DNA of 64,000 bases from Chitinophagaceae bacterium (GTDB lineage Bacteria; Bacteroidota; Bacteroidia; Chitinophagales; Chitinophagaceae). The position numbers and the translations under genes were made by a program. Positions 20,797-21,344 of this stretch are shown one piece after another (the stretch's first letter is position 1; every line of letters starts with the position of its first letter). Under the pieces are notes generated by a model that was not told the origin of the DNA, searched no databases, and saw nothing but the letters and a program-made list of their open reading frames with translations. The stretch spans positions 1 to 64,000 of the forward strand of contig JAFKGR010000010.1 in the NCBI GenBank assembly GCA_017307735.1, in the 5' to 3' direction.

Positions 20797-21048
20797 ATGA
20801 AAAAAGAAATTCATCCGGGTAATTACAGATTCGTCGTGTTCCGCGATATGAGCAACGGGTTTTCCTTTCTGAGCCGTTCTACTGCAGAGAGTAAGGAAAA
20901 AGTTAAGTGGGAGGATGGCAATGAATATCCGCTTATCAAATTGGAAATTTCGAATATGTCACATCCATTCTACACAGGTAAAAATGTGATGGTTGATACA
21001 GCCGGGCGTATTGATAAGTTCAATAAACGTTACGCAAAGAAGAAATAA
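20797..21048 (+). CDS. rpmE2: 50S ribosomal protein L31 type B
   Basis: The 83-residue protein begins [24 protein letters not shown] and ends [26 protein letters not shown], the pattern of type B L31. It lacks the CxxC zinc-binding cysteines of type A L31, so it is the zinc-independent form. It has its own promoter and leader hairpin and is followed by a terminator-like hairpin at 21086, so it appears monocistronic. Confidence 0.96.
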
Positions 21049-21085: not shown

Positions 21086-21120
21086 ATTCCGGATGCGATG
21101 ATTGCTCCGGAATTTTCTTT
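21086..21120 (+). terminator. Intrinsic terminator after rpmE2
   Basis: ATTCCGGA pairs with TCCGGAAT (8 bp, loop of 12) and is followed by TTTCTTTT. It begins 38 bp after the rpmE2 stop codon. Confidence 0.65.
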
Positions 21121-21129
21121 TAACCCAAA

Positions 21130-21278
21130 TTTTGCAGTTGGCTGCAAAACGACTAATAAAGCCTAATGCTCAAATAAAATATTTTCGCAAAGGCTTTCTA
21201 AGTCGGGGTTACCGGGATGCTTCCCATAACCCCTTACGAACTTTGCAGTAGCTTTTAGTGCTACTGCAAAATCCCGGT
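21130..21278. ncRNA. Hairpin-rich noncoding region, candidate structured RNA or palindromic repeat
   Basis: No gene is seen here, but four stems follow one another: TTTTGCAG/CTGCAAAA (21130-21149, loop TTGG), AAAGCC/GGCTTT (21158-21197), GGGGTTA plus GGGA with TCCC plus TAACCCC (21205-21233), and the perfect 11-bp TTTGCAGTAGC/GCTACTGCAAA (21242-21270, loop of 7). A further pairing ACCGGGA (21211-21217) with TCCCGGT (21272-21278) would exclude the third stem and enclose the fourth. The first and last hairpins share the ends TTTGCAG and CTGCAAA. It may be a small RNA, a switch-like leader of the 35-codon gene downstream, or a mobile palindromic repeat; none is proven. Confidence 0.4.
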
Positions 21279-21344
21279 TTAATAATATTCCGGTTCTTAT
21301 TTTGATTTCCAAAGGGATTGCCATAGGTTTATGAAAAATATTCT

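Follow-up and report, generated by a model that had tools for sequence, protein, structure and literature searches.

The hairpin-rich stretch downstream of rpmE2

The window analysed here, a stretch of 64,000 nucleotides from a Chitinophagaceae genome (G000), carries a run of hairpins sited between rpmE2, the gene for the type B ribosomal protein L31, and a glmU-like gene, the spacer between the two genes being 657 bases long. A preliminary description had reported four consecutive stems at this place, together with a rival long-range pairing of ACCGGGA (21211-21217) with TCCCGGT (21272-21278); all of these are present in the sequence, and the folding goes beyond chance as judged against shuffled sequences. 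The stretch 21100-21300 folds at -71.2 kcal/mol (z -7.8) and its opposite strand at -83.3 kcal/mol (z -9.5), and in neither case did any of 200 shuffles equal the value. An Rfam scan of the window recovered only two tRNAs above the gathering score, and a lax threshold at the hairpin locus gave eight sub-threshold matches, the best with an E-value of 0.44. By position, strand and nature, the features of the locus are:

20797..21048, + strand: rpmE2, encoding type B 50S ribosomal protein L31 (128.7 bits with NF002462, cut-off 86), a neighbour lying outside the element
21086..21121, + strand: terminator-like hairpin of rpmE2 with T-rich tail, arms ATTCCGGA (21086-21093) and TCCGGAAT (21106-21113)
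21119..21123, no strand: left 5-bp target site duplication TTTAA, where the T-rich tail of the rpmE2 terminator ends
21124..21277, + strand (orientation arbitrary): very probable 154-bp MITE, a non-autonomous transposable element (192.8 bits with covariance model R1, this copy being itself among the 18 used to build the model)
21124..21138, + strand: left terminal inverted repeat CCCAAATTTTGCAGT, about 15 bp
21130..21149, + strand: hairpin 1, arms 21130-21137 and 21142-21149, TTTTGCAG-TTGG-CTGCAAAA
21150..21205, + strand: hairpin 2, arms 21150-21164 and 21191-21205, alone in showing clear cross-genus covariation
21205..21233, + strand: hairpin 3, arms 21205-21210 and 21228-21233, with an inner GGGA/TCCC stem
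21242..21270, + strand: hairpin 4, arms 21242-21252 and 21260-21270, overlapping the right terminal inverted repeat
21263..21277, read on the - strand: right terminal inverted repeat CCGGGATTTTGCAGT; ACTGCAAAATCCCGG is the right end of the element
21278..21282, no strand: right 5-bp target site duplication TTTAA (from the sequence and a tally over 18 copies)

The TTTGCAG/CTGCAAA ends shared by hairpins 1 and 4 are part of the terminal inverted repeats, each of which is internally mirrored; the left and right repeats differ from each other at 4 of 17 positions. The coding potential of the 154-bp element is confined to overlapping ORFs of 49 and 53 aa (the only ones of at least 40 aa), and it contains no transposase gene. 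It is short, occurs in multiple copies, and combines terminal inverted repeats with target duplications, as is characteristic of MITEs.

A dispersed family of copies in the genome

A BLAST search of the own genome and of 58 relatives with 21100-21300 as query recovered, among the candidates scored, the window's own place, 12 other places in the own genome and a short antisense match, and one match each in the congeners G017 and G006. The aligned copies start with CCCAAATTTTGCAGT and finish with ACTGCAAAATCCCGG, or close variants of these, and are 152-155 bp long. A covariance model built from 18 copies (17 own and one of G017), with matches counted at E-values up to 0.001, found 29 matches in G000, namely 18 full-length copies, one of which measures 205 bp with an insert included, and 11 partial or rearranged ones. 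The alternative offered in the preliminary description, that the TTTGCAG/CTGCAAA ends mark a dispersed palindromic repeat, is borne out by this count; as for the exact scattered copies that it named as favouring a mobile repeat, the copies are scattered but near ones, the 12 other places being 89-95% identical to the window's. Among the 20 genus genomes the same model gave one match in G017 and two at overlapping places in G006, and nothing in the remaining 17.

The 5-mers flanking the 18 full-length own copies are identical on both sides in 12 cases, differ by one mismatch in five and by three mismatches in one (L090), and mostly follow the pattern WTNAW. When the 18 flanks were randomly re-paired the mean number of exact duplications was 1.9, and none of 100,000 trials reached 12. 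Four partial copies were tested likewise: none has an exact duplication, one has a duplication with a single mismatch and three have no matching duplication. None of the 18 full-length copies is spanned by an ORF of at least 100 aa; two extend over the margin of an ORF of that size (101 and 109 aa), and the genes that they adjoin are various and not only rpmE2. A strict terminator scan at the insertion sites scored one of the 18 own copies, which is why we claim no preference for terminators; the scan misses the window case, where the 12-base loop of the terminator-like hairpin exceeds its loop limit.

Minimal forms of 32 bp, consisting of barely more than the two inverted repeats, were seen at L058:1032-1063 and L060:945-976, flanked by an exact TTGAA duplication and a duplication with one mismatch, respectively. 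Such forms could have arisen by deletion of what lies between two direct copies of CTGCAAAA.

The rpmE2 locus in congeneric genomes

The rpmE2 gene was found in 17 of the 20 genus genomes, the own one included. The covariance model has no element match in the 17 foreign rpmE2 loci, which come from 16 congeners and include two partial ones (a weak partial match in G014 and a match that ends early in G019). The spacer was inspected in 16 of these loci, L282 of G014 being left aside. The glmU-like gene follows rpmE2 after about 75-215 bases in 14 of them; it lies farther away in G005, and none was seen in G019. Judged by eye, the congeneric spacers between rpmE2 and the glmU-like gene carry a hairpin and a T-run at the equivalent place, and in our judgement the terminator-like hairpin of rpmE2 predates the insertion of the element. 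Orthologous sites are in this sense empty, a comparison that concerns the rpmE2 locus alone, the congeners being too distant for base-by-base alignment of the flanks.

Shared ends and candidate parental transposons

The end pattern TNAWCCNRRATTTTGCAG, which includes bases on the side of the target duplication, was detected in 54 of the 394 family genomes sampled and in 35 of 101 genera, the own ones included, figures that overstate the spread of the element, since an identical TGATCCTGAATTTTGCAG, perhaps coding sequence, recurs among the single hits of five genomes (G132, G301, G258, G207 and G113). The pattern occurs twice or more in 23 genomes; a reversed control pattern gave single hits in four. 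Certain contigs break off just within such an end, where an ORF starts, and a search of 20 genomes with that ORF start gave matches in six and led to two full autonomous elements, one of 1397 bp with a 446-aa ORF (G024:C168) and one of 1398 bp with a 442-aa ORF (G141:C47). Their transposases are 77% identical to each other, score 212.5 and 230.4 bits, respectively, against the NCBIfam IS1380 cut-off of 180, and match PF13701; the G024 transposase has no match by sequence among solved structures. The first 17 bases of the window element are those of the left end of the G024 element (17/17), and the other end comparisons give 13-15 of 17. It is this agreement of the ends, together with transposases above the family cut-off, that assigns the repeat to the IS1380 type.

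In G000 itself neither PF13701 nor a search with the G024 transposase detected an IS1380-family transposase (the assembly is 99.58% complete, in 37 contigs), so that we make no claim of present mobilisation there. The congener G017 carries an IS1380-family transposase 45% identical to that of G024, within an element of 1398 bp that has TTTAA at its left and reaches the contig end. The two ends of this element coincide at 15 of 18 positions; compared with the left repeat of the window they coincide at 11 of 15, which makes it a cousin with diverged ends. As the G024, G141 and G017 elements all touch contig ends, no complete pair of duplications can be read from them. No interior common to the MITE and the IS came to light, and we do not claim descent by internal deletion.

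Several other candidate parents were set aside. In the 20 genus genomes PF13701 marks six places in five genomes, with ends not close to the repeat (the diverged G017 element among them), and in six repeat-bearing genomes it gave eight weak hits, all below the cut-off. A multicopy IS of G229 lacks such ends. A pair of ends 2.1 kb apart in G000 (C13:62711-64835) encloses a long ORF that is not transposase-like and presumably encodes an RmuC-like protein. Plasmid and phage records had no blastn match to the element, and viral contigs none to the exact pattern; among named genome contigs the exact pattern matched one, a Chitinophagaceae MAG.

CTGCTTTGCAG occurs close to the 3' end of each of the two IS1380 transposase genes; CTGCNNNGCAG occupies a central position in the 160-185 bp MITEs of G130, G180 and G386 and is absent from the 132-bp ones of G189 and G247 (loci compared: L252, L260, L220, L242 and L250). 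These two may perhaps be a trace of origin.

Conservation of pairing and the question of a regulatory switch

The preliminary description had further suggested a switch or attenuator, in which hairpin 3 and the ACCGGGA-TCCCGGT pairing would form two mutually exclusive folds; such a device would act in cis on the rpmE2 region. Both pairings are indeed in the sequence, and the fold of the 18-copy consensus favours the long-range one, which is paired in 96% of cells; the long-range pairs are also well retained, with means of 6.7 of 7 in own copies and 5.9 of 7 in eight foreign rows. Against this, the long-range pairing has no double change in the 18 copies and only one in 26 rows across genera, a number reached by 149 of 500 shuffles, and its covariation score in these 26 rows was reached by 44 of 500. 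The sole double change, at one of the seven pairs, is in a foreign element of G422. Moreover, the 3' arm of the long-range pairing consists of the terminal repeat plus one base of the target duplication, and would be conserved for another reason. Hairpin 3 has three double-change pairs against 2.1 in shuffles (matched by 173 of 500; for paired cells, 22 of 500), its retained pairs averaging 9.2 of 10 in own copies as against 5.75 of 10 in the eight foreign rows. For hairpin 4 there is one double change (172 of 500 shuffles; paired cells 12 of 500). The cross-genus alignment (A7) was made without near-identical or interrupted G422 copies, the G006 copy with its 3' part deleted, the G144 repeats and G328. 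Neither the 18 copies nor the 26 rows give the two exclusive folds a clear covariation signal beyond shuffles. With hairpin 3 ill-kept abroad and the rival pairing lacking clear covariation, a switch is not supported; given also that the element is missing from the 17 foreign rpmE2 loci and that its copies adjoin other genes, we regard a regulatory function of this kind as highly improbable.

The situation is different for hairpin 2. An alignment of 23 rows, 22 of them distinct, drawn from six genomes has double changes at 9 of its 17 pairs; shuffles give 2.4, and none of 500 is as high. A second alignment of 16 further hits at 15 loci has 37 double-change cells against 13.5 (0 of 500 shuffles) and nine double-change pairs against 5.8 (1 of 500), the alignment being one fitted to the model in which near twins of model rows (L288 and L298) were retained. 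The 15 loci were drawn from 22 non-own hairpin 2 places, six of which were left out as they or their near twins are in the model, and one of which, in G229 (L291), was dropped because its 5' half seemed unrelated; two antisense hits were lost on a stricter threshold. The compensatory changes that the preliminary description proposed to seek in relatives are thus present in hairpin 2, between unrelated sites, and absent at orthologous rpmE2 loci.

These changes allow a reading, compatible with a MITE, in which the element, as a mobile cassette, would preserve hairpin 2 for some function at the level of RNA or single-stranded DNA, for instance in protecting transcripts or aiding transposition, and would not be a mere passenger. 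The excess of double changes in both alignments speaks for it, as does the presence of hairpin 2 in repeats of G144 that have other ends. Yet the whole fold stays near chance in the 18 copies of alignment A3 (17 own and one of G017), with four double-change pairs against 2.2 (70 of 500 shuffles; paired cells 11 of 500); the further hits were tested on a model-fitted alignment that includes near twins of model rows; related sequences may beat shuffles without any structure; and template switching inside palindromes can produce paired changes without selection. The covariation could stem from selection on the fold, from template switching or from the rows being related, and a functional hairpin 2 seems to us possible, if on balance doubtful. 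More tentative still is the proposal that hairpin 2 is a transferable structured module, its fold maintained by compensatory change, which is carried both by IS1380-type MITEs of several genera and by a second, differently-ended repeat family; if true, functional structures of RNA or single-stranded DNA would be carried about in the Chitinophagaceae by short transposable elements.

Nature of the element and relationship to known systems

The above observations lead us to conclude, with a probability of about 0.9, that the four-hairpin stretch is an IS1380-type MITE inserted in the terminator tail of rpmE2, and most likely no switch of that gene. The dispersed-repeat option of the preliminary description was the right one and becomes more precise as a MITE whose ends are of IS1380 type and whose target duplications measure 5 bp. 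An IS1380-family transposase, since lost from G000 or unassembled there, would have recognised the ends and pasted the element into a TTTAA where the terminator tail stops. If rpmE2 or the gene downstream is affected at all, this would be a by-product of the spacer behind the terminator having become longer. The serial hairpins, the moderate copy number and the positions of the copies outside long ORFs might recall REP/BIME-like palindromic repeats, dispersed by a Y1/RAYT transposase or by recombination without DDE transposition; such an origin is contradicted by the 5-bp target duplications and by inverted ends that match those of a DDE-type IS, and there is very little chance that it applies here. 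To our knowledge, RAYT-type movement leaves no such target duplication.

Within the IS1380 family, duplications of 5 bp for ISPsp9 and 4 bp for ISPa33 (PMC4133298) and of 5 bp for ISEcp1 (PMC2887853) are described. The window element resembles ISEcp1 and ISPsp9 in the 4-5 bp class of its duplications, and shares its ends with the 1.4-kb elements of two related genera, but differs from such IS in being only 154 bp long and lacking a transposase gene, none having been found in G000 either. As described in PMC11578231, MITEPye1 of Paracoccus yeei is likewise small and without a transposase gene, with IS-like inverted ends, direct repeats, mainly intergenic sites and predicted stem-loops; however, its ends are of IS1182 type and it has 1-3 chromosomal copies, as against IS1380-type ends, 18 full copies and serial hairpins here. 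BrickBuilt and other MITEs of Porphyromonas gingivalis are similar in belonging to the Bacteroidota, in being intergenic with predicted stem-loops and in their roughly 10-20 copies, according to PMC4596501, whereas BrickBuilt has ends nearest to the IS5-family ISPg1/ISPg9, tandem 23-nt repeats and irregular duplications. The Tn3-derived TIMEs (PMC4133298) are also non-autonomous, with duplications of 5-6 bp, and differ in their length of 262 bp and their 38-bp Tn3-type ends.

The element is therefore ordinary in kind, and a new family in this group as far as the literature was searched: the titles and abstract openings covered, with subscription journals largely outside, mention no IS1380-type MITE in Chitinophagaceae or Bacteroidota. 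Recognising it disposes of a spurious candidate for regulation, and the repeat can now be named and linked to a probable motor.

Diversity of interiors and other repeats

In G072, elements of about 140, 185, 227 and 263 bp have the same ends with different strings of near-perfect hairpins inside, and G130, G180, G189, G247 and G386 have further types behind these ends, of 132-185 bp. Shared ends with interiors differing from genus to genus make up a natural series bearing on the origin of MITE interiors and on selection of hairpins. Conversely, the G422 elements keep hairpin 2 with different end hairpins, and G144 has seven copies (L288, L295, L299, L303, L306, L309 and L312) of a differently-ended repeat with a closely similar hairpin 2. 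Four copies on the single contig of G422 (L105, L121, L298 and L302) have flanking DNA in common, about 40 bp at the left and about 25 bp at the right, indicating that the element is there part of a larger repeat.

Another short repeat, TACCGAAAGGATATCCGTAATAG, is nested in one full copy of the element (L052:1360-1420, G000:C37) and also adjoins element pieces in C13 (L047:10760-10900), its placement indicating that at least one further repeat family is present. A tandem array with a period of 21/42 bp containing CCGTATGTTGTACAACA was seen at L061:7573-8076, with a similar sequence towards the ends of L065 and L066; GCGGGATTTTGCAGTAGC, which adjoins this array, resembles the end of the element.
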